Positions 5,090-42,164 of a DNA stretch of 64,000 nt are shown piece after piece. The position numbers and the translations under genes are program-made. Below the pieces are notes generated by a model, which did not search any database, was not told where the DNA came from, and was given only the letters and a program-made list of their open reading frames with translations. Numbering within the stretch: position 1 is the stretch's first letter; every line of letters starts with the position of its first letter. Source of the DNA: Gimesia aquarii. GTDB taxonomy: Bacteria > Planctomycetota > Planctomycetia > Planctomycetales > Planctomycetaceae. The stretch is from the NCBI RefSeq assembly GCF_007748175.1, contig NZ_CP037422.1, positions 620,001 to 684,000 on the forward strand, written 5' to 3'.

Positions 5090-5332
5090 TCTGTATCCAG
5101 GTTTATTGTAGCGTCTCCAGGCCTGTTTGGATTTCGTATCATCGCTTTGAAGCCGCTATGGTTAAATTGGATGTGCGATTGTATTTTATGCTGATAGACC
5201 GATCAGCTTCATTCGACTTGGAATGTCGGTGTACCCGACTACAATAATATATTGATTGTTTCGGAGCCCCAGTAACTCGCAAGTGTATGTCACAGAATAG
5301 TTGATGCTCGAATTAAAGATACCTCTACGTTA

Positions 5333-14396: not shown

Positions 14397-14612
14397 TTTT
14401 AATAGATGTTCTCCCTTTGTGATATGGGGAGATTTTAAATTTAAGATGCGTTCAACTGTGCTGTCATTAGCCTGATAGATAAAAGTTGTTAGCCCTGATT
14501 ATCATCTTCAAACATATTTGTTTTTAGATGATAACCGATTTAAGTCAAAGTCAGCTGAAGTTTGACTTGCTCTGTATCGGAAGGGCATCACACAAGAAAG
14601 ATAAACTACGAA

Positions 14613-16650: not shown

Positions 16651-16651
16651 A

Positions 16652-17275: not shown

Positions 17276-17276
17276 C

Positions 17277-17888: not shown

Positions 17889-17930
17889 GACTTCAATACA
17901 TTCTATTTTTAGAGCGGTCAACGTTTTATC

Positions 17931-24124: not shown

Positions 24125-25753
24125 ATGGCGATGCTGTATTACGATTTTTTCGGTGTTTTGAGTGAAAGAAGTCGTCAGAAGCAAGTTAGATTTGCTGATT
24201 TTGCCGTTAAGCTAATTTTTTTTGCTTGTTTACTCTTCCCTTTTTCAAGTTGTTCACATTTCGAGCAATATGCAGAAAAAGAATCAGGCATCGTATCTCC
24301 CCAGCCTCCGCTCGCCGCAAAAACCACCGCAAGAAAAACAAAAGCTTCTAATTATTCTGGTAAACTGCCAGCAATTGAACTGGTGGAATCTGAATGGCAG
24401 GAATTCGACGAAACCCAGGATATACGGTCGTCAGAGTCGCAAATTGAGCGAGTTGCTTTGAATACCCCTTTAGTCCCGCCTGCTCCTACAAAAGAAAAAG
24501 GAACAACCTGGAGTTCGGGGAAGAAAAGTTACTCACTAACACAGTTGGAATTGATGGCCAGCGAATATAATCCAACGTTGGCTCAGGCATCTGCTGTCGT
24601 CGGTAAAGCATGTGGTATTCAAACGCAAGTTGGTAAACGACCTAATCCAATTGTGGGATATTTTGGTGACGAAATTGGTGATCAGGGTACTGCGGGTCGA
24701 CAGGGAGCTTTTATCTCCCAGACGTTCATTACAGGTGATAAACTCAGACTAAATGAACTCGTTGCAGAAAAAGACGTTCAGGAAACGTCGTGGCAGTATG
24801 AAGCTCAGCGGATGCGAGTTAAGAACGATGTCAGTTCACGCTATTACGAAACCTTAGGCGCGCAACGAAGAATTGAACTAGCGAACGAATTGCTCAAAGT
24901 TGCTGAAGACGGACTAAAAGTGACTCAGCAACTATTTAAAGCACAACAGGCGAGTCGGGCAGATATCTTACAATCGAAAATTCAACTAAATGAAGTGCAG
25001 ATCATTCAGCAAAATGCGGTTTTGGCTTTTGAAGCATCCTGGAAACGATTGGTGAATATCATCGGACTCCCTGATCTGGTGCAGGGCCGATTAACAGGAG
25101 ACCTGGAAGAACAGTTTGCTCCCATTTCAGACTGGGACATTGTTTATAACGAATTAGTGAGCAAGAGCCCGGAGTTGCAGGCAGCCTACTATCGTGTTCA
25201 ACGTGCATGGTCTCAAATCGAAAGACAACAAGTACAGGCAAAACCAAATCTACAAACACAAGTAGGAGTCGGGCACGATTATCAAACAGGGAGTGAAATC
25301 GTAAATGCACAATTAGGTGTGTTTTTGCCGATATTTAATCGGAATGAAGGTAACATTGCAATTGCATCTTCTGACTATCATCGTGCACTAAAAGATGCAG
25401 AACGGATCGAGTTAAACTTACGTGATCGATTGACATCAGTTTATCGAAATCATCAGCAGGCTGCCCAGCAGGTTAACCGTTTTCAGAAAGAGATCTTACC
25501 TTCCGCAAAAGAAAATCTGGAATTAACAAATGAAGGTTATCGCCAGGGAGAATTTGAATTCTTGCGCGTTCTGACAGCACGTCGTACTTTTTTTGAGGCA
25601 ACACAGTCATATGTCTCGTCACTCATTGCACTGCGGCAGGCAGAGATAGGAATCTCCGGTCTTCTTCTTACAGGTGGACTCAATGCAGTACCTGATATAA
25701 GCCAGGGAGCAGGTGGAACAACCCAACGTGGACAAGCTTTGAATGGTCAGTAA
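24125..25753 (+). CDS. Outer-membrane efflux factor (TolC/CusC family) lipoprotein
   Basis: The 542-aa protein has a long N-terminal segment ending in a lipobox (FSSC, Cys at residue 43), then a low-complexity linker to about residue 140, and the paired helical repeats of the outer-membrane efflux family (for example RVKNDVSSRYYETLGAQRR and the second-half LRDRLTSVYRNHQQAAQQVNRF). It should form a trimeric outer-membrane duct for efflux or type I secretion. No RND pump or membrane-fusion protein gene is adjacent. The frame opens at a TTG (24110), but AGGA then ATG at 24125 is the better start. Confidence 0.9.
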   Translation: MAMLYYDFFGVLSERSRQKQVRFADFAVKLIFFACLLFPFSSCSHFEQYAEKESGIVSPQPPLAAKTTARKTKASNYSGKLPAIELVESEWQEFDETQDIRSSESQIERVALNTPLVPPAPTKEKGTTWSSGKKSYSLTQLELMASEYNPTLAQASAVVGKACGIQTQVGKRPNPIVGYFGDEIGDQGTAGRQGAFISQTFITGDKLRLNELVAEKDVQETSWQYEAQRMRVKNDVSSRYYETLGAQRRIELANELLKVAEDGLKVTQQLFKAQQASRADILQSKIQLNEVQIIQQNAVLAFEASWKRLVNIIGLPDLVQGRLTGDLEEQFAPISDWDIVYNELVSKSPELQAAYYRVQRAWSQIERQQVQAKPNLQTQVGVGHDYQTGSEIVNAQLGVFLPIFNRNEGNIAIASSDYHRALKDAERIELNLRDRLTSVYRNHQQAAQQVNRFQKEILPSAKENLELTNEGYRQGEFEFLRVLTARRTFFEATQSYVSSLIALRQAEIGISGLLLTGGLNAVPDISQGAGGTTQRGQALNGQ

Positions 25754-26427
25754 CCCCAAGTTGATTAATCTTGTGGTAACAAGTGTCTACTTTTTTGTGA
25801 TGAACAGACCAGCTTTTCGCGCCTTTTAGTAAGTGCAGCTTCCAATTCTTGATCTACAAGACTCGCGCAAGGATCCCCATCATATTCCCTTGTGAAAAAG
25901 CAGTCTTGGTACAAACGAGCCCAAGGTTATCGATAGCATAAATTCTGCTATGAATACGATATTTATAGCATGGACTCTCGAGATTTCTTCATAAATCCTA
26001 AGTACATAGATAATTTAATCTGTATACCCGCTCCTTCTAATTAGAGGTAATACTGCCCGTGGTGCGGAGTCACATCTAAGTAGTACTAATTCTTCTGAAA
26101 ACATTCAATTACAAATTTGTGCACAGAATCTGGAAAAGCGATTCGATCCGTTTTGAGTCGTTCGAGAATTGTCCTTCAATCGTCTTCTTACTGTGGGCAA
26201 AGGACGAGACTCGAAGAACCCTGTTTGAAATACGGATTGACAGAAATTTTTATTTTTTTCGCAATTTCCCCAGTCTCACTTACGTCCAATCTTTCAGACA
26301 ATGAACGAAAAAAACTATACTGTTTTCTATAAACTCTGAATTTAACGCTTTTTACGCGATTGCCCTGTTTGCCATCTATTCTCAACCAGATAACAGGGTA
26401 TTGGACAATGTACAAAAGGTGGGTAGT
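25754..26427. other. Long intergenic region before the giant-protein genes
   Basis: The largest gap in the window (674 bp) is A+T-rich with frequent stops in all frames. I found no convincing gene, tRNA, repeat or strong hairpin. A good ribosome-binding site (AAGGTGGG) for the next gene lies at its 3' end. It should contain that gene's promoter and could hide a small RNA I cannot recognise. Confidence 0.4.
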
Positions 26428-29400
26428 ATGCAATATCTAAGATTGGCACCTCGTTTTTCCCTTTTTTTGTTTGTAGCAACTACCTTACTTGGACTACCTG
26501 AATTCACGCGTGGTCAGACACCAGTTGATGCTGGTAAGCCTGTTCTCAGTACGAAAGACAAAGTACCCGAAAAGGAAAATGAATGGGACCATCTGATATA
26601 TATCCCCTTTAAAAACATTAAGGACGTTCTCAACAAGTCTGAAGCGACCATTTTTATGCCGTATTTGGAGTATTTAAAACTCTGGTCCCAGTCGGCAGGC
26701 ATTGGCACTGAGGGTGGTATCAACTTTCCTGTCAAAGCAGTCGTAACAAGTTCTTCTTACACTGGCACGGTTGAAGAAAACGTGGCGCGTATTCAATGTG
26801 ATTTAACGATTCAAGTGATAGGGGATCCTTGGGTAGAAGTTCCATTACGTTTTGGAAAAGCTGCAATTGGAAAGGTCAGCTCTACGAATTCGAAAGTTTT
26901 TTTGCGGGGCACTGGAAATGGAAGTTATGCACTATTGCTCTCTGAAAAAGGAGAGCATCGGGTGCAGATTGAACTATTAACGCGTGTAAAAAATTCCCCC
27001 GAAGGACACATTTTTCAGTTTGAATGTCCAACGGTTGGGGTTACAACCTTGGAACTAAAGATTCCTGAAGCAGATCAAACTGTGAAGATTACCCCCCAAC
27101 TGGTGCGGCTGCCAATTAAGTCACCTCAAGATGCCACTTTGGTTAAGTCGACATTGGGAGCAACCAATCAGATTACAGTGCTCTGGTATCCTCGTGAAAG
27201 CACAAAGCCAGAAATGGACTTGCTGGCGAGTGTCGAGAATTCTACATTGGTTTCAATTCGAGATGGTTTAGTCAATACACAATCATTATTAAAATATGAG
27301 GTCCTCAGAGGGGATATGCAAAGTGCACGGATTGCAGTTCCTCTCAAAGATCGTATTTTGGATCTTTCTTCCTCCAACACCAAAATCAAAAGCTGGGAAA
27401 TAGAGAAAACAGATAACAAACAAATCATTGCAGTTGAATTCCTCAATAAGTTGCAAAATGGTGCGCTGATTCAAGTGAATACAGAAAAAGATATTCCAGA
27501 TGAGCCATTTAACATCCTTGGCTTATCGGAGACAGCAACGAGTGGAATTCATGCACTCGATGTTATCAGAGAGAGCGGCCAGATTGCTATTGTCCCCGGA
27601 GAAAGTATGACGTTTTCTGTTACTAATACAGAAGGTGTCACTCGCAGTGAAGTTGCAAGTATTCCCAAGAGTATTCAAAGGCCCAACGCCGTTTATTATC
27701 GTTTTTTCAATCCCTCAGCAAAACTGCAGATCAGTATACAGCCACTCAAACCTCGTATTTTTGTAAATCAGTTGACCGAGTTTTTTTTCGGTGAAGATGA
27801 AATTCGAGTGCGAGCACAACTAGACTATGACATTCAACGAGCGGGTATTTTTTCGTTTCAGTTAAAAGTTCCAGAAAAACTGGTCATTGATTCTGTAAAT
27901 GTGGCTGGCCTGAAAGAATATAATTTTGATAAGAAAACGCGGCAGTTAACGGTTGCTTTGCTGCAAAAATATCAGGGGAAATTGAAACTACAGATTCGTG
28001 CGCATCAGGATTTCAATAAAGGATCGCAAGAATCAAAAGTCAATGTTCCATTACCGGAGCCAATCAACGTTGAGCGGGAGACAGGTCAAGTTGCCATTTA
28101 TGCTCCCGAGTCAATGGAGTTGATTATTAGAAATCAGGATGTCGTTGGTGCGCAGCCTGCCACGTATTCGAACCCAAGAATTACCAAGACTTCATTAGCT
28201 TCTGCTTGGGATTATAATCGCCGTCCAGTTGAGATTCCGGTTCAGATTCAAATTAAGCCGACACGACTGGTCGCAGATGTTGCAACCAGTATCGAAGTCA
28301 AAGAGCAAATTGCCGAAGTACTCAGCAGAATTGATTATCAGGTTCAATATGCCGGAGTGGATACTTTTCGTTTCGCTGTTCCTGAAGCAATTGCTGATCT
28401 GATCCAGATTCGATCTTTATCACCGGCTCCAGCACCATCCATCAAGCAGAAAAGTCGTGCTGAAAAAGCGGTTGAAGGTTGGGTTGTCTGGACTGTAACA
28501 ACGCAGAGAAATGTCCAAGGCCGTTATTCACTCGAAGTACGTTATGACATTACATCAGGTTTGTTAGCTTCTGCGGCAAAGCCAGATTCTGAAGCAGAGA
28601 ATACAGACAAAGAAAAGAATGAGGCATCAAAATCGGAAACAGGAGATATCTTGCTGGATAAGATCTCTTTACAACCATTGAAAGTATTAGGGTTAGAAAA
28701 AACGAATGAAAATCAGCGTTCGCGTGATGTTCCACTGGCAAGGGTTTACGGTGAAATTGCAGTTCGGAAGTCGAGAACGCTTTCTGTTTCAACTTCAAAT
28801 CTGGAAGAGCAACTGGATCCAATTGACATCCGCGAATTGAAATTATTACCGAAGGAAGGTTTTTTAGCATTTCGTTATTTTAGTCAACCGGTAAGTCTGG
28901 AACTCATATCTACGAGACACAAAATTCAGGAAGTCATAGAAACGATTATTATGAAATCTCTAGTTGAGGTCGTTGTGACTAAAGAGGGACGTTCAACTTA
29001 TCGCTGTCGTTATTTGATCAAATCAAGTGAAAGGCAACAGTTAAAAGTGGCTTTGCCAGAAAATATGGAACCGTTAAGTATTACTGTAGCCGGTCAACCA
29101 GTTCCTTTGGAAAAAGATGAGCAAAGTCAAAGCGAAGATGGTTGGTCAACGTTTTTTATTAACGTTGCCCGAGACCAGTCTTCAGATCAACCGTTTTTGA
29201 TCACCTTATTATTTACAAAATCTGTTCCCAGGATTACAGAATCATTTGGTGGTAATTTAAAGTTGCCCTTGCCGCTTTTTGGTGGAATCGATGGTGAAAA
29301 TGTTGTCGTTCAGCAATTGAAAACAGCAATTTGGGTACCTGATCAGTATACCTTGGTTGGTGTGGCTGATGAATTTGAGCCTGATGATCAGGTTTTTATA

Positions 29401-29928
29401 TCTGGGATCATTCCTGGGAGGGGAGGGATTCAGGCATCAGGAACCGATTTTGATTCTTGGATTGGGGCTTCTGCTGGAGCCTTGGTGGACTTTCCCACTG
29501 AAGGCCGTGTGTTTTCTTATTCGCGATTGGGAGACAGTCCGGAAATCAGTGTTTCATGGTGGAAACTTTCCTTTTCTACCTGGGTCTTGAGTAGTGCCCT
29601 AATTGCGATTGCCTTCGTCATGCGAAAAAAGACTTGGGAAAATAAGCTCACTCTGTTGATCTTTTTGATATTTATACTTGCGATTTACTCACTAACTGAT
29701 GCAGACAAAGTGCTGGTTGGTGTTTATGCCGCGCGTTTTGGAATTGTCGCAATGCTTAGTCTCTGGATTTTGTATGCTTTCGCAGGATTGCGAGCTGGAA
29801 AGAAACTTTCGTCAGATGCAGTAATCCAACATCGTTCCAATATAGATGGCGGTGGTCATTCAGCCGCTGTGATTCCACCTCCGGGTATATTTGATGAATT
29901 TATGCAAAATCAATCTGGCAAAAAATAG
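26428..29928 (+). CDS. Large exported membrane-anchored beta-rich protein, unknown function (module copy A)
   Basis: The 1,166-aa protein has an N-terminal signal peptide (about 1-30), a long beta-rich exported part and a C-terminal membrane region with three hydrophobic spans (about 1048-1126), ending in a polar tail. The exported part starts with a module (about 45-260) opening LIYIPFKNIKDV and FMPYLEYLKLW, which recurs twice in the next gene. A Glu/Lys-rich linker lies near 718-735. I recognise no enzyme motif. The ATG at 26428 has AAGGTGGG just upstream; the TTG at 26401 is less likely. Spacing of 97 bp to the next, related gene suggests an operon. Confidence 0.8.
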   Translation: MQYLRLAPRFSLFLFVATTLLGLPEFTRGQTPVDAGKPVLSTKDKVPEKENEWDHLIYIPFKNIKDVLNKSEATIFMPYLEYLKLWSQSAGIGTEGGINFPVKAVVTSSSYTGTVEENVARIQCDLTIQVIGDPWVEVPLRFGKAAIGKVSSTNSKVFLRGTGNGSYALLLSEKGEHRVQIELLTRVKNSPEGHIFQFECPTVGVTTLELKIPEADQTVKITPQLVRLPIKSPQDATLVKSTLGATNQITVLWYPRESTKPEMDLLASVENSTLVSIRDGLVNTQSLLKYEVLRGDMQSARIAVPLKDRILDLSSSNTKIKSWEIEKTDNKQIIAVEFLNKLQNGALIQVNTEKDIPDEPFNILGLSETATSGIHALDVIRESGQIAIVPGESMTFSVTNTEGVTRSEVASIPKSIQRPNAVYYRFFNPSAKLQISIQPLKPRIFVNQLTEFFFGEDEIRVRAQLDYDIQRAGIFSFQLKVPEKLVIDSVNVAGLKEYNFDKKTRQLTVALLQKYQGKLKLQIRAHQDFNKGSQESKVNVPLPEPINVERETGQVAIYAPESMELIIRNQDVVGAQPATYSNPRITKTSLASAWDYNRRPVEIPVQIQIKPTRLVADVATSIEVKEQIAEVLSRIDYQVQYAGVDTFRFAVPEAIADLIQIRSLSPAPAPSIKQKSRAEKAVEGWVVWTVTTQRNVQGRYSLEVRYDITSGLLASAAKPDSEAENTDKEKNEASKSETGDILLDKISLQPLKVLGLEKTNENQRSRDVPLARVYGEIAVRKSRTLSVSTSNLEEQLDPIDIRELKLLPKEGFLAFRYFSQPVSLELISTRHKIQEVIETIIMKSLVEVVVTKEGRSTYRCRYLIKSSERQQLKVALPENMEPLSITVAGQPVPLEKDEQSQSEDGWSTFFINVARDQSSDQPFLITLLFTKSVPRITESFGGNLKLPLPLFGGIDGENVVVQQLKTAIWVPDQYTLVGVADEFEPDDQVFISGIIPGRGGIQASGTDFDSWIGASAGALVDFPTEGRVFSYSRLGDSPEISVSWWKLSFSTWVLSSALIAIAFVMRKKTWENKLTLLIFLIFILAIYSLTDADKVLVGVYAARFGIVAMLSLWILYAFAGLRAGKKLSSDAVIQHRSNIDGGGHSAAVIPPPGIFDEFMQNQSGKK

Positions 29929-30025
29929 TCCAGTAAATATTGGTAAGACCTGACCTTGCATATATGTGGCGTTGTTGACTTTTTAAGAGACTAACTGTGA
30001 GCGACTAACTTCAATGGAGTTCGCC

Positions 30026-33000
30026 ATGATTTCGAATTCGACAAATTCTTCAGAACATATAACGGTTCCCCGGCAACGTATTCGGTATAAAAGAGGTTTG
30101 CTGTTCTGGTCAGTCTGTTGGTTGAGTATGTCTGTCTGCATGAATTCCGTTCTGCAGCAGACTGTGTTGGCGCAGAAGCCTGTTGCTCACAAAGAAGCCT
30201 CCAGTTCTGATCAGAAAAAATGGCCGAAGACGGCTGTTTATATTCCCGTCGATGAGTTAGATGCATTATTGATGCGCGATCGTAGTGGTGTGCTCTTACC
30301 GCGGACCCAATATGAGGCATTAAAAAAACAAGCTAAAGTTAACTCTGATGGTAATGTTCTCCCGAATTCGAACATCATCATTCATGACGCTACTTATCAA
30401 GCAACGGTCTCTGATCGCCAATTAATGATCGAAGCAACGATTTCAATTCAACAGTTTCAGCAAAAAATGACTGTAGTCAATCTACCCTTACATGGTTTGG
30501 CGGTGGAATCTGCTATGTTAGATCAACAGCCAGCAATGATCGCACGTTCGTCAGGAAAAATTGATTTACTTCAGTTATTCAGTCAACAACAAGGTGAACA
30601 TCAATTTGTAATAAAATTGTCGGCTCCACTGAATACTGTTGGCAGCGATCAAGTTGCGCAGTTTCGACTCTTGCCAAACGTAGCCAGCCGCTTCAAATTA
30701 GAAATTCCTTCAAATCAATATTTGATCGTAAATGATTTAAGGTTGAAACCATCTACTAAGAACAAAAAAACGGGTTATGAATTTCCAATTGGTGGTACTG
30801 GACAAGTCAATTTAAAGATAACAGAACAAACACATGAACAGACTAACGATTCGCTGGTTTTTGCCCGAAGTGCAATTGGTGTGTCGGTGAGTCCAGGGAA
30901 AGTTGCCTGGCAGGCGCAGACGGCATTGAGTATCTATGGGCAATCACTTGATCAAATCATTCTTAGTGTTCCTCAGTCTCTAGAAATTGTGAGTGTGGAA
31001 TCAACGGGACTGGAATCTTGGGAATTAAACGATAGTGTCAAAGACCAGCAGAGAACCGAAATCACTTTGAACTATCGCCAACCGATTGAAGGTGAGCTGC
31101 AAATTATCTGTCGTGGAGTCATGACCACAAAAGCGGATCAAGCGTGGAACGTTCCAGACCTCCATATTGAAAAAGTGAATTCCCATGTTGGTTCAGTTTT
31201 AATTCGATATCCTTATGGAGTTCGTTTACAAGTTGAAAATACCGATAGTGTAAGACGCCGTGTTATTAAAAATTCAGCAAATATGAAAAAGGCAACTGAA
31301 CGTTCGGTGAATAGCCCAGGGATGGACTTTGATTTCTGGCAGCAGATGTTTGACATAACCTTAGTGACACAGGAAAAAAGGTCCGAAGTTCAGATGGCGG
31401 CTTCAACAATTGTTGAAATCAATGAGCAGGGTATGAATTTGCAATTAGTGACGACTGTGGAAAGTTTGTTTGCGCCACTCTTCGAATTTCAAATGCATAT
31501 CCCCGCTGAATGGACAATTCTCGGAGCGACCATACAAAACCAAAATGCCAATTGGAAAGAATCATCCAGAGAAGCAGGTAGCAAATTGATTCGGCTACCA
31601 TTCGTCAAAGTATTACCTGCGAATACTGAAGCTAAAGTTGTGATTCTCGCTCATCGTGATCTGGAAAACTGGCCTCCTGATTCTGGTAGTCAATTACTGG
31701 AATTACCCAAAATTGAATTACCCCAGGCGAAAATATTGGAAGGGTCTATCATCATTAATGCCGACAGTGATTGGGATCTGGTTCCCAGCGGATTGACGAA
31801 TTTAGAGCCGATGCAGGAACGAATTTCTAAAATGCGTTTTGGGTATCAGTATCAGGACAATAACTATAAAGGGAGTTTGACAGTTTCTCGAAAGCCGCTT
31901 CAGTTAGCTGCACGTCACTTACAATATGTAAGACTAGACCAAACTACCTTTTTCTCTCATTTTGAAACGACTCTCAATGTGGAGCGGGGTAGCTATCGAA
32001 AATTAATGGTAGCACTTCCGGAGAGTGTCGGAACCGATCTTCAGTTTCGACTTATGAAAACAGACGGAAAAATCATCGAACAAGTGGCTGATAAACCACA
32101 GAATGGCCTGCTCGTCTGGACTCTCAAAATGGACCGACGTTTAAGCGGGAAGCAAATTTTAGTTGTCACAATAGAACAGCCTCGAAAAGAAGGCGAGATT
32201 GTCACTATCCCTCAATTACAAATCATGTCCGCCGATAGACAATATGGTGAAGTCGCTTTTGAAGCTGAAGGGGATCAGCGTTTGAGAATTCAAACAATGG
32301 GCCTGCGAGGACAACCTTTAACGTCAATTGATGCAGCTGAACTACAATTACCTGTAACGTATCGGCCTCGGGAACGGATTGTGGCAGCGTATCGATTTGT
32401 TGGAGTTGGTCATCAAATTAAAGCTGAAGAAACTCGCTTCAAACAAACGGTTGTACCTACAGCAATAGCACATCAGCTTGCTCTAAAAAGTTTATTGGGA
32501 CATGCAGGTGAAGTCCAAAACGAAGTATTACTCTCATTTTCTGCTGTTGGGATCCAATCTTTGAAAGTCGCTTTGCCAGATCAGGCTCTCTTATTGTCTG
32601 CTCTGGTAGATGGAATTCCTGTGGAAGTTCGTAATACGGGAAAGGCTTTTATCATTCCGGTTGCCTCCGGTAGTCAAAGTGCTGGAACTCGTACTTTGAA
32701 GTTATTGTATGATGTGAATCAAAGGCCTTTAGATCAAACACAACAGTTTTCTCAGTCACCACCTCAGGTTGCTGTTGTAGATGGAGCGGGACAGACTCAA
32801 CCTTTGGAAATTTTAAATCAATCATGGTCTGTACTTTATCCAGATGAGCTTTTAATTACAGAAAGTAAAGGAGACTTTATACCTGCCAAACCGTTACTCC
32901 GACCTGGCATGCTGGAGAGTATCCGTCGGCAACTTTCCCTTCTCTCGCCGCGCCAAATGGTAGGCAGGCTTTTCATGCTCTTCTTTATTTGCATTGCGAT

Positions 33001-36000
33001 TTTGATTTGTACCTACTGTTTTCGTAGAGGGGGTATCTCTGGTATAGCATTTCTGATCGGCGGGTTCTGTGTGTTGTTTCTGATGATTTTATTATTAATG
33101 CCGGTATTAAATTCGAAACGTGCATTGGTTAGAATCTCTTCATCACGAAATCTGCAGGAGCAACCAGGGCAAGCCGTCGCTGCATATAGTTCTGATGATG
33201 GCTCAGAAACCGATGGTTATTATCTTAAAGACAAAATGGAAATGATTCCGAATGTTCAAGATGGGATCGAAACCGAGAGTATGGGCCGATCGCGAGTTAG
33301 TGGAGTGGCGGAAAGAGCTGAAAAAGCGCTGGGGCTTCAGCGGGATCAATCACAATTGGCAGTACCAATGGACCAACCTGCTCTGGCAAAAAGTCCACAG
33401 GGTGTGAGAAGTCATACCATTATTCGTAATGCTCCTAAATCACAACATCCAGAACCATCTGCGTCTATTGAGATAGAGGGGAAACTCGGTGGACTTGGTG
33501 GGGGTGCATTACCTGCTGCAGAGACTCCTGCTGCACCAAAAGAGCAGTCGAAAAATGACTTCGTTGCCGGATTTGAATCACCGTTGCCTGCAAGAACATT
33601 GGGCGGGCGTTTGTCTGTTGTTGCGCCATTACCAGAACCAGTTGGGTTCCACTCATTGGCTTTCCAATACTATGGAGCACCTCGGCAAGAACCACTGTCT
33701 CTTAGCATTTCATTACAGCAGTCACAACGAAGTAGGCGATTTTTCCTGGCTGTGGTTGCAGGTCTGCTTTGGTTGAGTTGGTTATTTCGAGGGATTTCCT
33801 GCAGACGAAAGCTGGCACTGGTAATCTTTGGGATTTTACTTCCTGTTACCTGTAGCGCGCTTGTCTCAGCCCAGTATCAATCGTTACTGGATGGTGTCTT
33901 TTGGGGATCAATCCTTACTAGTATTTTGTGGAGCCTCGAGTGGTTCTATCAGCGGCTTCGGTCTGAGATTAAAGCGCTCCTACATTCGACTGATAAACAG
34001 GCAACCGTTACATCGTTGATTTTGTTGGGATCTTTCTTATGTAGTCCAGAAGCTGTTTTTGCACAGAAGAAACCTGTAGTAGAGCCCAAACTGCCTCAGA
34101 ACCTAGTGATTCCCTATGAAGTGGGGAAAGATCCCTTGAGTTCGCAGCGGATCTTTCTCTCACGTGAAGAGTTTATTAAGCTCTGGAATAAAGCCCACCC
34201 TGATCAACGGGTGAATCAAGAGTCTGAATCAGGCGGTGTTATTAGCCAGGCACTTTACTCGGCTAAGGTTAAAGCGGGAGCAGAAGCGGGACAAGCAATT
34301 GTGCATGTGAAGGGCCGACTGGTAATCCACACAATTGGTAATCAACCGGCGACGCTACCACTTCCTCTGGGAGAAGCAGCAATCAGTAGCGCACTTCTGG
34401 ACGGGAAATCGGCGACAATTTTAGTTCGTCAAGCCAAAACCAAAAAAACAAGGTTAGAAAACGTTTACTCTATCGTGATCTCTAAGCCAGGTTTACATCT
34501 GTTGGACCTGGAATTTGATCTTCCTGCACGGCAGACGGGAGTCACTGGCAGCTTCCGAATTAGTTTGCAACCGGTTGCCAGCGGAAGATTCACTCTGGAA
34601 CTTTCTGACAAAGACTCACAAATCAGCATCACAGGTTCGAGAGCCTCTTATCGAAAGCAGACGCTTTCAGGAAAAACAACATTGGAACTTCCCATCGATC
34701 AGGGAGGTACAATCCAATTTGCTTGGAGACCTGCGGAAGAACGTGGAGCAATTCAAGGGATTGTGCAGTGCAAGTCGACTCAGGCAACTGTCGTTCAAGA
34801 TGCTGGTCTGGTGTTGCGCAACGAATATGATTACCGCGTTCGTCAAGGAGAAATAAATCAGGCCAGCTTGAAGATTTCTGAAGGTTTACGCATCCAGTCA
34901 ATCGATGGGCCAGATGTCGGAGGCTGGGAAATGGTTGGCACCGGAGAAGAACGCCGCGTTAAGGTTTTTTTACGACGAGATATTAAGGATTCAACGAAAA
35001 TCAATATCGTCGCCTTTCATCCGTTGTCAGTTAGCAAACAATCCCGTGTTGTTAATATACCTCAAATTGCACCTGAAAATATTACCAATGAAACAGGCAC
35101 TGTCGGCGTGTATGCGGAATCACAATTTCAAATTCGTCCAGAGGAAATCGCTGGTGCAATTCAAATTGATGTTGGACAATTTAAAAACCCTGCGACGTCT
35201 TCACCTGCTTTGAAGGTTGCCAGTCAGGTCTTAAGACCGCAATGGGCTTATCGTTTTTCTCGACGTCCATTGATTTTTCGCTTTTCTGTTTTTCGTCGAC
35301 AGCCTGAAAAACTGGCAGTGGCCGAACATGCGGTTTTAGTTTCTCCTCGAAAAATGAGCCTTTCCAGTCGAGTGAAGTATCAATTAAAGGGAACGCCTGA
35401 GTCAACATTTGTAATTGAACTCCCAGAAACGTACCTGATTTTAAACGTGAATGCTAAAGAATTGGATGACTGGTATATCATTGAACAGAACGCTGATGAT
35501 ATGCGGGTTTTGATTCTTGAATTTAAAGAATTGAAAACAAATCAAGTAGAAGTGGTTTTTGATGGCGTAATCTCTCGAAATGCAAACAAACTTGAAGCAG
35601 AAGTGATGATGCCGACACCCTTGGAAGTTTCATCTGTACGTAGCGATCTCGCTATCTGGTGTGATGATTCTTTACTGGCAAGTGCGCCGGAATTAAAAGA
35701 TTGGCGATCGATTTCACCTGAAGATTTATCAGCCGAACTAAAAGAGCAGCAACCTCGATTGCCTCAGTTTGCTTTCCGTTCTACAGCTGAATTACCAGAG
35801 TGGATCAATTTGGAATTGTCACCCGCTCAGCCGATAGTCACTGCTAATTCGCTGGTTATGACGACTGTAGGTAATGTTTCAGTGAGTTATACAGTAGGAA
35901 TACGTTGGACGATTCAGGGCGCTGCCACTGATGTATTCTCGTTTTCAACTCCCGCATGGCTGGGGGAACAGCTTGACTTTCGAGGAGAATCCATTCGTCA

Positions 36001-38110
36001 GGTAGATAAGAAAGTGATTGGCGGCGCAGTCGTCCAATGGACGATCTATTTGCAGGATTCCGTAGAAGGTTCGTACTTCATTACGGCCGAATCGACTTTG
36101 TCTCCCCCTGATTCCGGTAAAATTGAGATCCCACAAGTACGCGTAATGGATACCAGAGGCAATGTTGATCCTCAAACAACGGAATTAGAAACTCAACAAC
36201 ATTTTCTAATGCTCGTAAATCACTCATGGGCACGACTTTCTTTATTGAATCAAGAAAGTATTGCTCCAGTTGAGCGTCAGGAAATGCCCTTAGTGATCAA
36301 TGATTCTCTAGCGAATCAGGCGATGGAGTTAGCACGCATTATTCGCAACCGTAAACCACCGATTTATCAGATACAACAGTTTCAGGCAGATCAGGGAGCT
36401 GCCGCTGCAGTAAATCTGGCAGATTTGACCACTGTTTTGGCCAATGACGGAAGCTGGAAGACTCAGGCTGATTATCGAATACGAAATCGTTCGCGACAAT
36501 TCTTGGCGATTCGACTTCCTGAAAAAACACAGGTTTTGAGTGCTTTTGTCAAAGGCAGACCAACGGCTCCCGTCCTGTTAAAACCTGATCCACAAAACAA
36601 TGAGATTAAAAAAAATCTCATTTATCTAGTTGCCTTACCTAAGGCAAGTGCGGCTGATCTATCGTTTTCGGTGAAGTTGATTATAGCGGGCCGTTTAGCA
36701 CAACCATTGTCCCAAAGCACATTCCGATGGCAGGCACAACTAGTTGATATGCAGCCTCCACAGGTTGTGATCCCATCCGAAAATGCAGACTATGGAATTC
36801 CTGTGGCGCAGACCAAATGGACTGTTTATGTTCCCAGTGATTATACTGCTACAGCATTGCTGGATGATCCGCGTACCAATATGACTCCTGTCAGGGATAG
36901 TCGCTCTTACTCTTCTGGTAGTCTCGATATTTCCAATCTTGCCAAAGACGTTGACAATTTATACTCCGTCTATAGTGGCAGTAAGAGTAGTCGTGTTCGA
37001 AGTCGAGTGATCAAAAATCTCAAACGACTGGAAGAGGGACTGAAAAATACTCCGAATTCGAATGAAATGAGACAAGGACAACAAGGCCAGCAAATCAAGC
37101 AGAAGATTGGTGAAATTCAATTGAGAGAACAACAGCGTCAGGCACAGCAGGAAAAATTATTTGGTAATTCCAGAGATATGAATGGCGATGGGCAAGTTGA
37201 TTTTGATTCCGATGAAACATTTAACCAGTTAGTGATTGGTAATAATGCAGCTTTATTTGAAGCGAATAAGGGAGTTACTTTTCAGGAAAATGTGAAGGGT
37301 AAAACAAAACCTTCCGCAGGGACTCTCTCCAGAAAGTCAAGACTTTCAAAAGAAAAAGCTGAATTAAGAGGCTTTTCTTTTCAAAGGGAATTAGACAAAA
37401 AAGGTACCAAGAAGAAAGCCACCAGTAAGCCTGTTGACAGTCGCGCACTCAGGCGAAAGCAAAGTTTTGAAAATGCCGCTGGGCAAATCCAGTCCCCATT
37501 TGGTCTTCCTCAACAGCAAAGTGCAGAACCCAATGCTTCAACTCCCCGGTTCAATGATCAAGTTCGTTCTGGAAAATTGTCTCAAAAAGGAAAAAATGAT
37601 CTTTGGATGCAGCTAAATGAGGTGGAAGAATCATTGACAGATGCGAAATCTCCAAATCTGAGCTTTGGTAGTAATTTTTCTGGTTTAGAGCGTGAAGATA
37701 TTCTTAACCAATCAGTGGATACCGAAAGCCGTGGACAACAAGCAGATTGGACTCAGGCAGGGGGAATTTCTCTGAAGTTTAATCTCCCCATTCACGGTCG
37801 CAAACTTGAGTTCACAAAAATCAACGGGCAGCCTAAGTTGGCACTTAGTTTACGATCTGAAAATACGTATGAAATTGGTTCTGCTGTACTTTGGACTTTG
37901 ATTTGGGGGCTGATTTCGCTTGCATTGATCTGGTACGGATTTCGATTTTCTCAGTCAGAGATTGCACAAGTTCGGCTAGGTGCCATACTGATTCTGATCG
38001 GTTTAGCTGGTTGGTTATTCCTCTCCGGAGCATTAGCAATTTTCGGCATGGTATTCTTTCTCACTGGCTCAATTTGTCTTGCCTACCGGTATGTGAGGCG
38101 AGCTACTTGA
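30026..38110 (+). CDS. Giant exported membrane protein with two fused beta-module halves (copies B and C)
   Basis: This protein of about 2,694 aa starts with a signal peptide (about 14-48). The first half (to about 1030) is beta-rich and opens TAVYIPVDELDALL and LLPRTQYEAL. Membrane spans follow at about 981-1030 and 1235-1311. At about 1328-1350 an internal signal-like segment (VTSLILLGSFLCSPEAVFAQ) leads into a second half that restarts with NLVIPYEVG and FLSREEFIKLW. A Gln-rich stretch (2340-2385), an EF-hand/dockerin-like loop DMNGDGQVDFDSDE (2384-2397) and C-terminal helices (2615-2690) complete it. The ATG at 30026 has GGAG 6 nt upstream; 30014 is possible. Function is unknown; an envelope location is inferred. 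Confidence 0.8.
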   Translation: MISNSTNSSEHITVPRQRIRYKRGLLFWSVCWLSMSVCMNSVLQQTVLAQKPVAHKEASSSDQKKWPKTAVYIPVDELDALLMRDRSGVLLPRTQYEALKKQAKVNSDGNVLPNSNIIIHDATYQATVSDRQLMIEATISIQQFQQKMTVVNLPLHGLAVESAMLDQQPAMIARSSGKIDLLQLFSQQQGEHQFVIKLSAPLNTVGSDQVAQFRLLPNVASRFKLEIPSNQYLIVNDLRLKPSTKNKKTGYEFPIGGTGQVNLKITEQTHEQTNDSLVFARSAIGVSVSPGKVAWQAQTALSIYGQSLDQIILSVPQSLEIVSVESTGLESWELNDSVKDQQRTEITLNYRQPIEGELQIICRGVMTTKADQAWNVPDLHIEKVNSHVGSVLIRYPYGVRLQVENTDSVRRRVIKNSANMKKATERSVNSPGMDFDFWQQMFDITLVTQEKRSEVQMAASTIVEINEQGMNLQLVTTVESLFAPLFEFQMHIPAEWTILGATIQNQNANWKESSREAGSKLIRLPFVKVLPANTEAKVVILAHRDLENWPPDSGSQLLELPKIELPQAKILEGSIIINADSDWDLVPSGLTNLEPMQERISKMRFGYQYQDNNYKGSLTVSRKPLQLAARHLQYVRLDQTTFFSHFETTLNVERGSYRKLMVALPESVGTDLQFRLMKTDGKIIEQVADKPQNGLLVWTLKMDRRLSGKQILVVTIEQPRKEGEIVTIPQLQIMSADRQYGEVAFEAEGDQRLRIQTMGLRGQPLTSIDAAELQLPVTYRPRERIVAAYRFVGVGHQIKAEETRFKQTVVPTAIAHQLALKSLLGHAGEVQNEVLLSFSAVGIQSLKVALPDQALLLSALVDGIPVEVRNTGKAFIIPVASGSQSAGTRTLKLLYDVNQRPLDQTQQFSQSPPQVAVVDGAGQTQPLEILNQSWSVLYPDELLITESKGDFIPAKPLLRPGMLESIRRQLSLLSPRQMVGRLFMLFFICIAILICTYCFRRGGISGIAFLIGGFCVLFLMILLLMPVLNSKRALVRISSSRNLQEQPGQAVAAYSSDDGSETDGYYLKDKMEMIPNVQDGIETESMGRSRVSGVAERAEKALGLQRDQSQLAVPMDQPALAKSPQGVRSHTIIRNAPKSQHPEPSASIEIEGKLGGLGGGALPAAETPAAPKEQSKNDFVAGFESPLPARTLGGRLSVVAPLPEPVGFHSLAFQYYGAPRQEPLSLSISLQQSQRSRRFFLAVVAGLLWLSWLFRGISCRRKLALVIFGILLPVTCSALVSAQYQSLLDGVFWGSILTSILWSLEWFYQRLRSEIKALLHSTDKQATVTSLILLGSFLCSPEAVFAQKKPVVEPKLPQNLVIPYEVGKDPLSSQRIFLSREEFIKLWNKAHPDQRVNQESESGGVISQALYSAKVKAGAEAGQAIVHVKGRLVIHTIGNQPATLPLPLGEAAISSALLDGKSATILVRQAKTKKTRLENVYSIVISKPGLHLLDLEFDLPARQTGVTGSFRISLQPVASGRFTLELSDKDSQISITGSRASYRKQTLSGKTTLELPIDQGGTIQFAWRPAEERGAIQGIVQCKSTQATVVQDAGLVLRNEYDYRVRQGEINQASLKISEGLRIQSIDGPDVGGWEMVGTGEERRVKVFLRRDIKDSTKINIVAFHPLSVSKQSRVVNIPQIAPENITNETGTVGVYAESQFQIRPEEIAGAIQIDVGQFKNPATSSPALKVASQVLRPQWAYRFSRRPLIFRFSVFRRQPEKLAVAEHAVLVSPRKMSLSSRVKYQLKGTPESTFVIELPETYLILNVNAKELDDWYIIEQNADDMRVLILEFKELKTNQVEVVFDGVISRNANKLEAEVMMPTPLEVSSVRSDLAIWCDDSLLASAPELKDWRSISPEDLSAELKEQQPRLPQFAFRSTAELPEWINLELSPAQPIVTANSLVMTTVGNVSVSYTVGIRWTIQGAATDVFSFSTPAWLGEQLDFRGESIRQVDKKVIGGAVVQWTIYLQDSVEGSYFITAESTLSPPDSGKIEIPQVRVMDTRGNVDPQTTELETQQHFLMLVNHSWARLSLLNQESIAPVERQEMPLVINDSLANQAMELARIIRNRKPPIYQIQQFQADQGAAAAVNLADLTTVLANDGSWKTQADYRIRNRSRQFLAIRLPEKTQVLSAFVKGRPTAPVLLKPDPQNNEIKKNLIYLVALPKASAADLSFSVKLIIAGRLAQPLSQSTFRWQAQLVDMQPPQVVIPSENADYGIPVAQTKWTVYVPSDYTATALLDDPRTNMTPVRDSRSYSSGSLDISNLAKDVDNLYSVYSGSKSSRVRSRVIKNLKRLEEGLKNTPNSNEMRQGQQGQQIKQKIGEIQLREQQRQAQQEKLFGNSRDMNGDGQVDFDSDETFNQLVIGNNAALFEANKGVTFQENVKGKTKPSAGTLSRKSRLSKEKAELRGFSFQRELDKKGTKKKATSKPVDSRALRRKQSFENAAGQIQSPFGLPQQQSAEPNASTPRFNDQVRSGKLSQKGKNDLWMQLNEVEESLTDAKSPNLSFGSNFSGLEREDILNQSVDTESRGQQADWTQAGGISLKFNLPIHGRKLEFTKINGQPKLALSLRSENTYEIGSAVLWTLIWGLISLALIWYGFRFSQSEIAQVRLGAILILIGLAGWLFLSGALAIFGMVFFLTGSICLAYRYVRRAT

Positions 38111-38186
38111 AATCGATGATGATTCTGTTGTATCTTGCAGCAATGAATTTCAAGTAACTTTCTCGTTTCAATTGTTAGAGGCCATT

Positions 38187-38870
38187 ATGGGAACTAAAGT
38201 CACCTGGCTGGGACATGCCACTTATCAAATTGAAACTGCTGGTAAAACGATTTTGCTGGACCCCTTTCTGACCGGCAATCCAAGCGCCACGATCTCAGCA
38301 GATAGCTTATCAGCAGAGGCCATTATTGTAAGCCACGGCCACGGCGATCATGTTGGTGATACTGTCGAGATTGCGAAGCGGACAAGTGCTCTTGTGATCG
38401 CTAACTTTGAAATCGCAGAGTGGATGCAAAAACAAGGTGTGGAAAATGTGCATCCCCAGCATATTGGTGGAGCGCATCAATACGATTTTGGAACCATTAA
38501 ACTTACGATTGCACATCACGGCTCCATGTTACCTGATGGGAGTAATGGCGGCAGCCCTTGCGGAATTTTATTGAAATTAGCGGAGGGGACAATTTATTTT
38601 GCTGCTGACACTGGCTTATTTTATGATATGACTTTGATTGGTGAGGAAGGTGTAGATCTGGCGATCTTACCCATAGGTGATAATTTTACAATGGGACCGG
38701 AGGAATCAGTAAAGGCAACTAAATTCATTTCCCCAAAACGAGTAACTCCAATGCACTACAACACATGGCCGCTCATTGAACAGGATGCAGTGGCCTGGGC
38801 CGAGCAGATAAAAGCCCAGACAACAGCAGAACCGGTTGTATTAGAGCCGGGGGAATCTTTCGAATTATGA
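38187..38870 (+). CDS. Metal-dependent hydrolase, MBL fold (UPF0173 family)
   Basis: The 227-aa protein is a compact metallo-beta-lactamase-fold hydrolase of the UPF0173 type: VTWLGHATYQIE at the N-terminus, the metal motif SHGHGDHVGD (about 51-60), IAHHGS, AADTGLF and a late MHYNTWP. It lacks a signal peptide, so it is cytoplasmic. The substrate is unknown; related proteins are annotated only as metal-dependent hydrolases. The frame opens at a TTG (38172), but AGAGG precedes the ATG at 38187. It ends 4 bp from the convergent Rieske gene. Confidence 0.9.
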   Translation: MGTKVTWLGHATYQIETAGKTILLDPFLTGNPSATISADSLSAEAIIVSHGHGDHVGDTVEIAKRTSALVIANFEIAEWMQKQGVENVHPQHIGGAHQYDFGTIKLTIAHHGSMLPDGSNGGSPCGILLKLAEGTIYFAADTGLFYDMTLIGEEGVDLAILPIGDNFTMGPEESVKATKFISPKRVTPMHYNTWPLIEQDAVAWAEQIKAQTTAEPVVLEPGESFEL

Positions 38871-39245: not shown

Positions 39246-40478
39246 TCAACGTCCAGGCTGAGCCGCTCGACGAATTTTCGATAGTTTGCGGATCAGACTA
39301 CCCATTTGGTGACGTGTGATAGATTTTGAATTCGAAAGTTTAGCTGCTTTCATTAACAAAGCTTTGACTTTTTCCGGATCTTGTTTGAGACGTCTTGCGA
39401 TTGGATCAATCACGCGGTGCTCTTCTCCGCGAAAGTGCCTGAGGTGTAGCTCCGTAAAGAGTTGCTTGACATACGCACGAAATAATGCATGTGCATTACC
39501 ATTTTTAAAGTGTAAATTTCCTACGTTATCAGTATGCGAGACAATGTTATGACGTGCAAGAATGTGAGATGAAAGAAAAGGACCAAAACGGATACTGTGC
39601 CACCATCCATACAGCAGCAGTGCTATCAATATTTGTATGGTTAAAGGTCGAAAAGTGGGATTGATCAATAAAGCCACGACTTTTGAAGTTCCTGAAGCAT
39701 TCAGAGATTCATCGACGACTACATAATCAAGCATTCCCGCTGATTCGATCAGTCGAAAGGCAGCAACGCTTCCGCCATCAATCATAGACTGATTGGAAAA
39801 AATATCGGAGGACGCGGCTACAACGATGTCGCCAAACCCGTGTTTCAGTCGAACTGCTTGTTTGGTCTCTCCTAATGAAATCAGTGTCTGGCCTGATTTA
39901 GAATTCACTTGGGCATTCGTTTCCCAGATAATCGATTTCGCGTCGGGAAATACCGTTGTTGCTTTACCAGCCAGAAGACTATGCTTGTCATCGAAAGAGA
40001 AAGTAATTCGGCTTTCCTTGTTCTTCTGTTTTTCAATATTATCTAAAGGAATATTTTCGCGTTCTGTTTCATCAAGATAACTTACACTGATTTCCAATGG
40101 ATCGATTTCCAACTCTGGGTGTTTATCACTTGCTGAGATGATCAGCCGCCCTCCTTCATTGACCCAGTCAAGTAAGATAGACCATTCTAAAGGACTGGGA
40201 TATCTGGCTGGCCCCAAAATGCAGAGCGTGTCATTATAATCCAGAGACTGATTCAGCATTGATAATGGAACACGATTGCGTTCCGTATAGTTGGTTTCGT
40301 ATTCCAACAACAGAAAGAAAGCTTTTTTCCCACTGCCTGATGAACTGTATGTATCATCCATTGCTCCTGTGCCGAATTCCGGAAACCAGAAATGGAGACT
40401 AAGTAGGGTGCAAAGGAAGAGCAGCCAGATCCAGCCGACGTTCCTGCGTTCACGCTTTTTTCTGGAAGGCTGCTTCAT
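39246..40478 (-). CDS. DUF4350 domain membrane protein
   Basis: The 410-aa protein has an N-terminal membrane helix (about 14-34), a DUF4350-type region (GSGKKAFFLLLEYET, then LCILGPARYPSPLEWSILLDWVNEGGRLIISA) and a second membrane helix (about 275-295), followed by a cytoplasmic charged tail. In other bacteria DUF4350 proteins sit in operons with MoxR ATPases, DUF58 and DUF4129 proteins. It overlaps the DUF4129 gene by 29 bp. Function in the complex is unknown; a sensor-like or scaffold role is only inferred. Confidence 0.8.
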   Translation of the reverse strand: MKQPSRKKRERRNVGWIWLLFLCTLLSLHFWFPEFGTGAMDDTYSSSGSGKKAFFLLLEYETNYTERNRVPLSMLNQSLDYNDTLCILGPARYPSPLEWSILLDWVNEGGRLIISASDKHPELEIDPLEISVSYLDETERENIPLDNIEKQKNKESRITFSFDDKHSLLAGKATTVFPDAKSIIWETNAQVNSKSGQTLISLGETKQAVRLKHGFGDIVVAASSDIFSNQSMIDGGSVAAFRLIESAGMLDYVVVDESLNASGTSKVVALLINPTFRPLTIQILIALLLYGWWHSIRFGPFLSSHILARHNIVSHTDNVGNLHFKNGNAHALFRAYVKQLFTELHLRHFRGEEHRVIDPIARRLKQDPEKVKALLMKAAKLSNSKSITRHQMGSLIRKLSKIRRAAQPGR

Positions 40479-41250
40479 AACTGTTTAAGGTACTTTCAAA
40501 ATGTTCTTTGGTGGCTTCTCGTCGACCAAATCCTAAAGGCTCATATGTACGAATTATTTTGCGAAATGAATCACCGGGTAAGCCGTGAGGTCGCGCCGCT
40601 CGAAGGTAATCTCGATAAGTCAATCCTTTGCGGAAACGAATCCAGCCTGATCGTTCAATGAAACTCATTGAGCCGTATAGCAATTGTACGATGGCATTGT
40701 GGTAATCGCCGGATTTGGCGAATTTTTTTGCTCGTTGTAGATAGATGGACGCTTCATTTTCTGCAGGCGAAACAATCTGTTCTATAATTACTTCACCTTG
40801 TAGTTGTGTTCCTTTTGGCTCATCACTCTTTTTTCGTGCGTAATCGATTCCTTTAAAGGATCGATAGAGCAAATACAAAATCAAACAGCAGATAGAAAAG
40901 ATAAACGCATAAGATAGAATCAATAGAAATAGTCCTCCGAAGGCAAAGAAGAAGGGTTCGGCCGCATTAGCTTCTTGCTCCTGGGACTCTTTTAAAAATG
41001 CTTCCCAATCAAAGGGTAAATCGGAAGCTGTCTCACGTTGTTGGGTTAGATGGCGAAATTCGGGCCGACTGAGGATTTGTCTCGTATCTTGTTCGATGAT
41101 TGTTCGGTCAGGCGATAAAGCTTTGGAATAGTCGTTCTCAATCGTCTGAGAAAATATTGTGGTTGTATCTAATAGAAAGCAAGTTATTAAAACAAAACTT
41201 AATACAAATCTCCTTACTGGTCCATAATTCCATGGGAGGTGATAAATCAT
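40450..41250 (-). CDS. DUF4129 domain membrane protein
   Basis: The 266-aa protein has a signal-like N-terminal helix (about 12-34), a second membrane helix (about 103-130) and a C-terminal DUF4129 region with GLTYRDYLRAA and a final YEPLGFGRREATKEHFE. The start ATG overlaps the stop of the upstream gene in an ATGA arrangement, which is tight translational coupling. DUF4129 proteins commonly accompany MoxR/DUF58 systems and transglutaminase-like proteins; neither is present here. Confidence 0.82.
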   Translation of the reverse strand: MIYHLPWNYGPVRRFVLSFVLITCFLLDTTTIFSQTIENDYSKALSPDRTIIEQDTRQILSRPEFRHLTQQRETASDLPFDWEAFLKESQEQEANAAEPFFFAFGGLFLLILSYAFIFSICCLILYLLYRSFKGIDYARKKSDEPKGTQLQGEVIIEQIVSPAENEASIYLQRAKKFAKSGDYHNAIVQLLYGSMSFIERSGWIRFRKGLTYRDYLRAARPHGLPGDSFRKIIRTYEPLGFGRREATKEHFESTLNSYEAAFQKKA

Positions 41251-42164
41251 AATAATGCCTCCCCCTTTTTGAGGTTCTGAGAAACTTCTGCCATACGTAA
41301 TTCCATATCCCAGCAGTCACGATGAACCCTCAGATCTATGTATGTGAAGAACCAGGCTAGACGACCAATCGGATAAACGAGCAGGATGAATCCTGTCAAT
41401 ACAGCTAAAACTCGTGGATCGGATGTCATCAATAGCAGAATATTAGACAAGGACTGATCGATTGCATCAATATCAAATAGATATGGGATTTTCCCCATGA
41501 CGATTGGAAATTCTAATAATTTATAAGATAGATAATCGAACGTAACAAAAAATATCAAAGTCAGGACGTAACAGAAAAAGAACGACCAGAGACCACGAAA
41601 AAATAGTGCCCCAAAATCATGTGAGATCAGATTTTTCGTTCGATGATCATGTGAAATCCCTGACTGTGAAGCAATCCCGGCATAACGGAGTGAAGATTGT
41701 TCTGCACGAAAACTGCTTCGTAGTGTCAACCAGATTCCAGGAATAAAAATGTATATAAAACCTACTAAAATCAATATGTTATCAGAGAAAAATATCAAAG
41801 CGGGGCCGATAAAAATAATCGCTCGGTCGAACAGACAGCGGAAGATTAAGGAGATCAATTGTGGGTTAAATTGATTCCTCAAAGCACGAAAGCCTTGTTG
41901 ATTTCCAAAAGTATATAAAGCAGTATTCCAGGTGAGAATCACACCCAACGGTGAAGTTGCGAAGTAGGCAACTGTAATAGCAGTGCTAAGATTGACCAGA
42001 AAATAGTAGCTGAGAAGATAGACTAACGTGCAAGCAGGTATGGCAAACAAAGCCCAAATTTTTAAAAGAGGGATTAGAAAACGTCCATAAAACATAATTG
42101 CCAGATCCAAACATTTGACTGCCTTACGGGGAACGAGAGCAATATTGACATGATCAAATCTCAT
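41247..42164 (-). CDS. Polytopic membrane protein of the RDD/SpoIIM operon
   Basis: The 305-aa protein has about five or six hydrophobic helices (near 28-60, 64-84, 112-145, 186-210, 246-265) and no recognisable catalytic motif. I do not assign a family. It is locked between SpoIIM and DUF4129 genes by 4-bp overlaps at both ends, so it is almost certainly a component of the same membrane assembly. Its layout suggests a channel- or scaffold-like protein, which is inference. Confidence 0.75.
   Translation of the reverse strand: MRFDHVNIALVPRKAVKCLDLAIMFYGRFLIPLLKIWALFAIPACTLVYLLSYYFLVNLSTAITVAYFATSPLGVILTWNTALYTFGNQQGFRALRNQFNPQLISLIFRCLFDRAIIFIGPALIFFSDNILILVGFIYIFIPGIWLTLRSSFRAEQSSLRYAGIASQSGISHDHRTKNLISHDFGALFFRGLWSFFFCYVLTLIFFVTFDYLSYKLLEFPIVMGKIPYLFDIDAIDQSLSNILLLMTSDPRVLAVLTGFILLVYPIGRLAWFFTYIDLRVHRDCWDMELRMAEVSQNLKKGEALL

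Follow-up and report, generated by a model that had tools for sequence, protein, structure and literature searches.

Two adjacent giant genes of Gimesia aquarii encode three copies of one exported beta-sandwich module, one in the first protein (P1) and two in the second (P2; modules A and B), and a conserved internal signal peptide directly before module B means that P2 may be a polyprotein cut in two. We regard the presence of three homologous exported modules at this locus as virtually certain. Planctomycetes are bacteria known for unusual membranes. The family is large and has no Pfam or NCBIfam match over cut-off, yet it occurs in 55 of 61 genomes sampled from the order and in at least 55 of 149 sampled from the phylum. 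If the internal signal peptide is cut, P2 would be a bacterial polyprotein that yields paired envelope parts in a fixed ratio, and the linkage of module genes to VWA and sigma factor genes in some relatives offers a concrete route to testing what the family senses.

Three homologous modules in two neighbouring genes

The window, the whole stretch of 64,000 nucleotides analysed here, is C1:620001-684000 of a single-contig genome of 7.2 Mb. P1 and P2 are encoded in the same direction (+), separated by 85 bases (Table 1). The original prediction, made from the sequence, was that one beta module appears three times across the two genes, each time behind a short recognisable opening. These openings lie where they had been placed, at P1 residues 66-73 and P2 residues 75-82 and 1365-1371, and comparison of family profiles with hhalign bore out the repetition. 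P1 aligned with module A over 916 columns (E 1.6e-49) and with module B over 870 columns (E 8.7e-52), and A aligned with B over 856 columns (E 1.7e-42). Plain BLAST matched P1 to the second half of P2 as well (19% identity, E 8e-11). What did not stand was the short-motif scale of the repeat: the unit is an ectodomain of about 900 residues, built of about five beta-sandwich domains and followed by a C-terminal anchor.

The P1 profile (alignment A3) comprised 38 rows, the window and 37 of 74 named loci, and the P2 alignment 37 rows, the window plus 36 loci in which the P2 open reading frame (ORF) is long. From the latter, alignments of 34 rows each were taken for module A (P2 residues 52-1050; A4) and module B (1335-2425; A5). 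In profiles of single segments (domains and cassettes), rows covering under half of the segment were dropped, which removed none in the cassette comparison.

Table 1 Features of the P1-P2 locus, in window coordinates
Feature	Position	Strand	Size or basis
P1, single-module protein	26401..29928	+	1,175 aa; 1,166 aa from ATG at 26428
P1 N-terminal signal peptide, cleavage-like site G38/Q39	26428..26514	+	hydropathy, conserved site
P1 ectodomain module, about five tandem beta-sandwich domains	26578..29505	+	AlphaFold; profile matches to A and B
P1 C-terminal cassette, juxtamembrane strands and three membrane helices	29482..29796	+	AlphaFold, hydropathy
P2, double-module protein	30014..38110	+	2,698 aa; 2,694 aa from second ATG at 30026
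P2 N-terminal signal peptide, A53/Q54	30086..30172	+	conserved site
P2 module A ectodomain	30221..32923	+	profile matches to P1 and B
Membrane hairpin after module A	32957..33100	+	hydropathy, also in mean of 37 sequences
Module A C-terminal cassette, juxtamembrane strands and membrane helices	33587..33949	+	hydropathy, cassette profiles
P2 internal signal peptide, cleavage-like A1350/Q1351	33971..34063	+	37-sequence alignment
P2 module B ectodomain	34064..36913	+	AlphaFold; profile matches to P1 and A
Module B C-terminal cassette with membrane helices	37745..38104	+	hydropathy, cassette profiles

AlphaFold models of P1 (mean pLDDT 78.8, pTM 0.39) and module B (mean pLDDT 81.7, pTM 0.38) have the same order of strands when compared by eye, module A being placed by profile only. 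Both begin with a short helix that corresponds to the 'YLKLW'/'FIKLW' opening. Unrelated folds, which would have spoken against a common module, were not what structure prediction returned for these two modules. With pTM values of 0.38-0.39, the single domains are well predicted and the arrangement of the domains, including any rod shape, is not.

When the modules were cut into five domains, counterpart domains of P1 and B matched each other throughout (E 2e-16, 7e-12, 1e-13, 3e-11 and 1e-12 for d1 to d5). The best single match paired P1 d3 with d2 of module B (E 5e-18), as expected if the domains are themselves repeats. Within P1, d2 matched d3 (E 9e-10) and d3 matched d4 (E 2e-7), so that part of the module itself looks like repeats; the match of d2 to d4 reached only E 3e-4, and d1 and d5 had no clear match to other P1 domains.

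Behind module B, a helical tail was placed by eye at window positions 36974-37048 (P2 residues 2321-2345). The corresponding segment of relatives, again located on the window's P2 by eye, resembles the start of DUF1559/SBP_bac_10. A calcium-loop-like stretch, DMNGDGQVDFDSDE, lies at 37175-37216 (P2 residues 2388-2401) in a poorly conserved linker after the module.

An exported, membrane-anchored family outside known profiles

The claim that the locus encodes one expanded, unrecognised family of exported proteins with C-terminal membrane spans also held. At the N-terminal site of P1, the -1 residue is alanine (25), glycine (10) or serine (3) in all 38 rows, and +1 is glutamine in 37 of 38; at that of P2, the alanine is conserved in 32 and the glutamine in 29 of 37. 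Predictions place membrane helices at the C-terminus of P1 and of each half of P2, and the cassettes that carry them are related to one another (E 1e-6 for P1-A, 3e-6 for P1-B and 1e-4 for A-B, vs 3e-3 for a control hairpin).

Neither protein matched a Pfam or NCBIfam family over cut-off. Across 38 P1-type members, 15 Pfam families appeared at E<=0.1, each in a single member; across 34 B-type members there were 10, and only SBP_bac_10 (DUF1559) occurred in more than three (8 of 34; best E 3.6e-6). Membership in that family was not accepted, as a re-scan of eight members gave one match, over 24 residues (E 0.009). Against PDB sequences, the profiles of A and B found nothing at E<=1 and the P1-type profile nothing convincing (best E 0.015). 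In Foldseek, the two models resembled tandem beta-sandwich proteins broadly, with ribophorin I/Ost1 and integrin alpha chains at the head of the hits; those of module B also included M1 aminopeptidases and inter-alpha-inhibitor. Because the TM-scores are low, we take this likeness to indicate the fold class only. Two other readings of the locus were discarded: a defence system (no PADLOC match) and an RNA element (no Rfam match across 25700-38300). No title or abstract opening that we found describes the family, and P1/P2-type proteins were not recognised in the passages of PMC8567305 examined.

An internal signal peptide in P2

P2 contains a feature absent from the original prediction, which had anticipated its membrane spans. 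Around residues 1320-1350, a charged stretch is followed by a hydrophobic stretch and then by AXA/Q, directly before module B. Among 37 family sequences, -1 is alanine in 35, the site is of the AXA type in 36, and +1 is glutamine, glutamate or alanine in all 37. The -1 alanine is the most conserved column within residues 1318-1363, and the site as a whole is about as conserved as the genuine N-terminal sites of P1 and P2.

A plain membrane helix has no need of a fixed alanine at the signal-peptidase position, and for this reason we infer cutting by signal peptidase I. In addition, module B occurs as a separate ORF preceded by a signal sequence in three loci (L166, L111 and L115); in a fourth (L169), membrane helices stand first. 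In L166 the three parts are three ORFs, with the P2 halves in different frames, and in L169, L111 and L115 a single in-frame stop parts the halves. L166 and L169 have three separate ORFs in the same order as the window. Outside the family alignment, inspection by eye showed a clear site before module B in 8 of the 17 long first-pair proteins and in 8 of 9 long proteins of the second pair described below. The exceptions (L174, L177-L181, L198, L218 and L219 in the first pair, L212 in the second) have no clear site or only other membrane segments before module B.

The main rival is that P2 stays whole, with the internal hydrophobic segment serving as the last membrane helix and returning the chain to the periplasm, so that a double-module protein would stand beside P1. 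By hydropathy this topology works without any cut, and the fusion is retained in most loci seen among the matches listed at identity >= 26%, as if the covalent link mattered. The nine of 17 distant long proteins without a clear site point the same way. Evidence against an uncut P2 comes from an alanine that tops the conservation of the segment in the family, from an AXA/Q site resembling real N-terminal ones and from the loci in which B is its own ORF with a signal sequence. We give the uncut protein a considerable probability, somewhat short of an even chance. That P2 is a polyprotein cut by signal peptidase I at the internal site seems slightly better than an even bet, our confidence being lowered by the fact that no more than 8 of the 17 distant proteins have a clear site.

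Distribution and pairing of the modules

To describe the distribution, genomes were drawn from the family, the order and the phylum. A P1 search found a match in at least 75 of 81 family genomes, with only weak matches in four (G016, G039, G049 and G058; best E 6e-13 to 3e-9), two of which (G049 and G058) turned out to carry the second pair. Module B was the feature found in the 55 order genomes, and P1 and P2 queries each matched the at least 55 phylum genomes, 48 of them outside the family. The closest P1 among named records, from a Planctomycetaceae bacterium (L096), is 87% identical, and records labelled Gimesia reach 73-77%. A weak match at 7,179,602 of the window's own genome (E 0.28; L195) was set aside, the module profiles giving no match there.

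The gene pair is itself conserved, the point on which the original prediction had asked to be checked. A P2-type ORF directly follows P1 in 61 of the 63 named loci (of 74) that have at least 700 bases beyond P1; in the other two (L129 and L154) there was no P2-type ORF next to P1. Some draft genomes, G046 and G079 among them, have P1 on one contig and P2 on another.

We built a tree of 87 hand-picked modules, whose borders are rough because long proteins were cut at fixed fractions. All 21 P1 types formed one group (support 0.98) and a second contained 18 of the 24 A types (0.94), whereas 19 of 24 B types grouped with a support of just 0.24. Modules of seven loci (L178, L179, L180, L181, L218, L219 and L215) fell outside the expected groups. 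As the P1 and A groups both include distant lineages, at least these two types are older than the lineages. In L178, an extra module gene (1600-5460; 1,287 aa) stands beside a normal pair, and in the tree the L178 and L180 modules are separate from the common A and B types.

The window's own genome also carries a second, divergent one-plus-two pair (1,181 and 2,239 aa; L197:1197-11419), and pairs similar to it are found in other families of the class. The L197 pair adjoins an inositol monophosphatase gene and is near a type IV leader peptidase gene. Among 31 second-pair loci compared, an inositol monophosphatase-type gene was nearby in 10 (one member scanned), and a gene cluster, N1, with a PMT_2-type member (one scanned) in 5 (L205, L207, L211, L212 and L213).

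Neighbouring genes and linkage to VWA and sigma factor genes

The original prediction had also left open which genes travel with the pair, and here the answer was divided: the window's own neighbours seldom do, and sigma and VWA genes do in some distant relatives. Genes for OEP, HTTM, metallo-beta-lactamase and DUF4350 proteins were dropped as partners because they occur at only 2-3 of the 74 named loci, counts that are limited by the shortness of many of these loci. The HTTM-domain gene (E 7e-18; 22341-23876, +) is preceded by a 222-aa gene without a Pfam match, and both are common to 3 of the 74 loci. Elsewhere in the window are genes for a Na+-translocating NADH:quinone reductase (13050-20220, +; NqrA, NqrB/RnfD type, FMN-binding, two Rnf-Nqr and NAD/FAD/2Fe-2S), followed by an ApbE gene, and a series on the minus strand (39246-44144) that reads DUF4350, DUF4129, one gene without a match, SpoIIM and RDD family. 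A squalene-hopene-cyclase-like repeat protein is encoded at 44474-45604 (+), and a gene 58-60% identical to it sits upstream of P1 in L133 and L151.

Of the 48 genomes with modules that lie outside the family, 13 have a YfbK_C/VWA gene immediately upstream of, and co-oriented with, a module gene (G084, G089, G097, G115, G116, G142, G154, G156, G190, G193, G208, G218 and G222). YfbK_C (PF12034) is present in at least 82 of the 149 phylum genomes, and by a hand estimate about 0.2 such adjacencies would be expected by chance, against the 13 observed. All 13 linked genes score in the weaker YfbK_C range (E 1e-15 to 9e-35). A sigma-type gene stands just before the VWA gene in 8 of the 13 loci; in the other five, the contig or fetched stretch stops inside the VWA gene, leaving its upstream side out of view. 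The sigma and VWA helper profiles were built from L172, L173, L175, L177, L181 and L140, which therefore match by construction, and these loci also have their own Pfam hits. Pfam found zf-HC2 in two of four YfbK_C/VWA proteins scanned. Across the 13 linked proteins, several of which are cut at their start, a zinc-finger pattern was present in 3, a strict metal-site pattern in 6 and one strong hydrophobic helix in 10.

The linked module genes are mostly of the two-module subtype. A P1-type gene comes next in only 5 of the 13 loci (G116, G142, G193, G208 and G222); in seven (G084, G097, G115, G154, G156, G190 and G218) a long two-module ORF is next, with no P1-type gene seen, and in G089 a 1,399-aa module ORF adjoins the VWA gene, followed by a weakly matching ORF. 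Among the other 35 distant genomes, those inspected had no VWA link except G108, where a gene for a finger-VIT-VWA protein is the divergent neighbour and is accompanied by a sigma gene. Within the window's family, P1 is directly preceded by a VIT-VWA gene in L106, L123 and L129; in L105, L107, L140 and L161, sigma-type genes are found about 1-4.3 kb upstream (of 74 loci). The window's own genome has no YfbK_C gene. Its single VIT-VWA gene, at 1,271,154, is far from P1 and P2, is 30-33% identical to the neighbours in L106, L123 and L129, and lies in 19.9 kb of sequence that gave no match of the sigma type.

A tentative model and its alternatives

We propose that P1 and P2 are exported by Sec, P1 as a separate protein and P2 as a precursor. 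The internal signal peptide of P2 would re-enter the translocon and be cut by signal peptidase I between A1350 and Q1351, so that A and B arise as two anchored products in a one-to-one ratio. In each of the three parts, about five beta-sandwich domains would follow one another in a chain, held by a helical anchor in the membrane, and the three paralogous exported proteins would most likely work together as one periplasmic scaffold anchored in the inner membrane. The chances that P1, A and B form one complex appear evenly balanced. Such a complex would probably be bound in the periplasm by a membrane-anchored VWA protein. In some distant relatives, where the VWA protein has an anti-sigma zinc finger and its gene is accompanied by that of a sigma factor, the complex would relay the condition of the envelope to transcription. 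This coupling to VWA and sigma factors is doubtful, all the more so as no clear P1-type gene stands beside the VWA gene in 8 of the 13 VWA-linked loci.

Sequence underlies the first steps of this model; the last depends on genes being linked in a minority of the genomes, chiefly with the two-module subtype. Taken whole, with its periplasmic scaffold, cut P2 and VWA sensor, the model is plausible with less than even odds, lowered by the distant proteins in which the internal site is unclear and the VWA-linked loci that lack a clear P1. More speculative, and in our judgement unlikely, is an old planctomycete envelope machine in which three paralogous periplasmic rods, two of them freed by signal peptidase I, would have their tension or occupancy read by a VWA-type anti-sigma factor controlling a sigma factor, the one-plus-two set having been duplicated into a divergent second pair kept in several families of the class. 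The description of the locus as an undescribed envelope system is reasonable, because the pair is conserved and some distant relatives are linked to sigma and VWA genes.

Other functions can be imagined for anchored beta-sandwich chains. Ribophorin I/Ost1 leads the Foldseek hits of P1 (E 3e-9) and ranks 7-9 for module B, and the N1 cluster with its PMT_2-type member (one scanned) lies near 5 of 31 second pairs; the modules could accordingly be Ost1-like accessory proteins that hold exported proteins near a membrane glycosyltransferase. We consider this very unlikely, given TM-scores to Ost1 of at most 0.32, with integrins and other beta arrays scoring alike, the absence of Ribophorin I from the Pfam families matched at E<=0.1 by the 38 P1-type or the 34 B-type members, and no PMT family in the 18 neighbouring window genes scanned. 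The dominance of integrin alpha chains among the hits of both models would instead suit surface adhesion rods of integrin-leg-like build that bind a ligand outside the cell, but TM-scores of 0.08-0.17 indicate tandem beta-sandwiches in general, the predicted C-terminal helices would fix the proteins in the membrane, and Pfam finds no adhesion domain in the window proteins, which together make this highly improbable. BatD with BatA/BatB is a model for a helper in VWA-protein assembly, and the beta-rich, anchored modules with their VWA neighbours in some relatives might play such a part without any sensing role. To this, too, we assign little probability, as Pfam gives no BatD match and a role in regulation is suggested by the sigma-type genes that 8 of the 13 linked loci contain.

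Comparison with known systems

Among proteins of known structure, Ost1 (PDB 6s7o_E and 6s7t_E) resembles the modules in having an exported, membrane-anchored lumenal part of tandem beta domains. It differs in having fewer domains and in being a subunit of the eukaryotic oligosaccharyltransferase, and we found no sequence similarity to the modules; for Ribophorin I, module A was scanned within the window's P2. Integrin alpha, alpha-2-macroglobulin and complement proteins share the tandem beta-sandwich build by Foldseek only (TM 0.05-0.17), with no sequence link. Inter-alpha-inhibitor heavy chain 1, a VIT-VWA protein (PDB 6fpy_B), was matched by module B (E 1.5e-4), but P1 and P2 have no Pfam match to a VIT or VWA domain, and a VIT origin of the beta domains was rejected after hhalign of P1 domains with neighbouring VIT domains gave a probability of at most 0.8%. 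M1 aminopeptidase structures resemble only part of the module B model. Neither Peptidase_M1 nor BatD gave a Pfam match in the window proteins or in the 38 P1-type and 34 B-type members.

Two bacterial systems offer parallels in organization. Pairs of an ECF sigma factor and a membrane anti-sigma factor with zf-HC2 bear comparison with several distant loci that read sigma, VWA/YfbK_C (some with a finger) and module gene; they differ in that the window's own genome lacks a YfbK_C member and the modules themselves are not anti-sigma factors. The cytochrome b/c1 precursor of Bradyrhizobium is a bacterial protein that signal peptidase cleaves at an internal signal peptide. It parallels the cut proposed for P2, but the proteins are unrelated, and the products of P2 would be paralogues.
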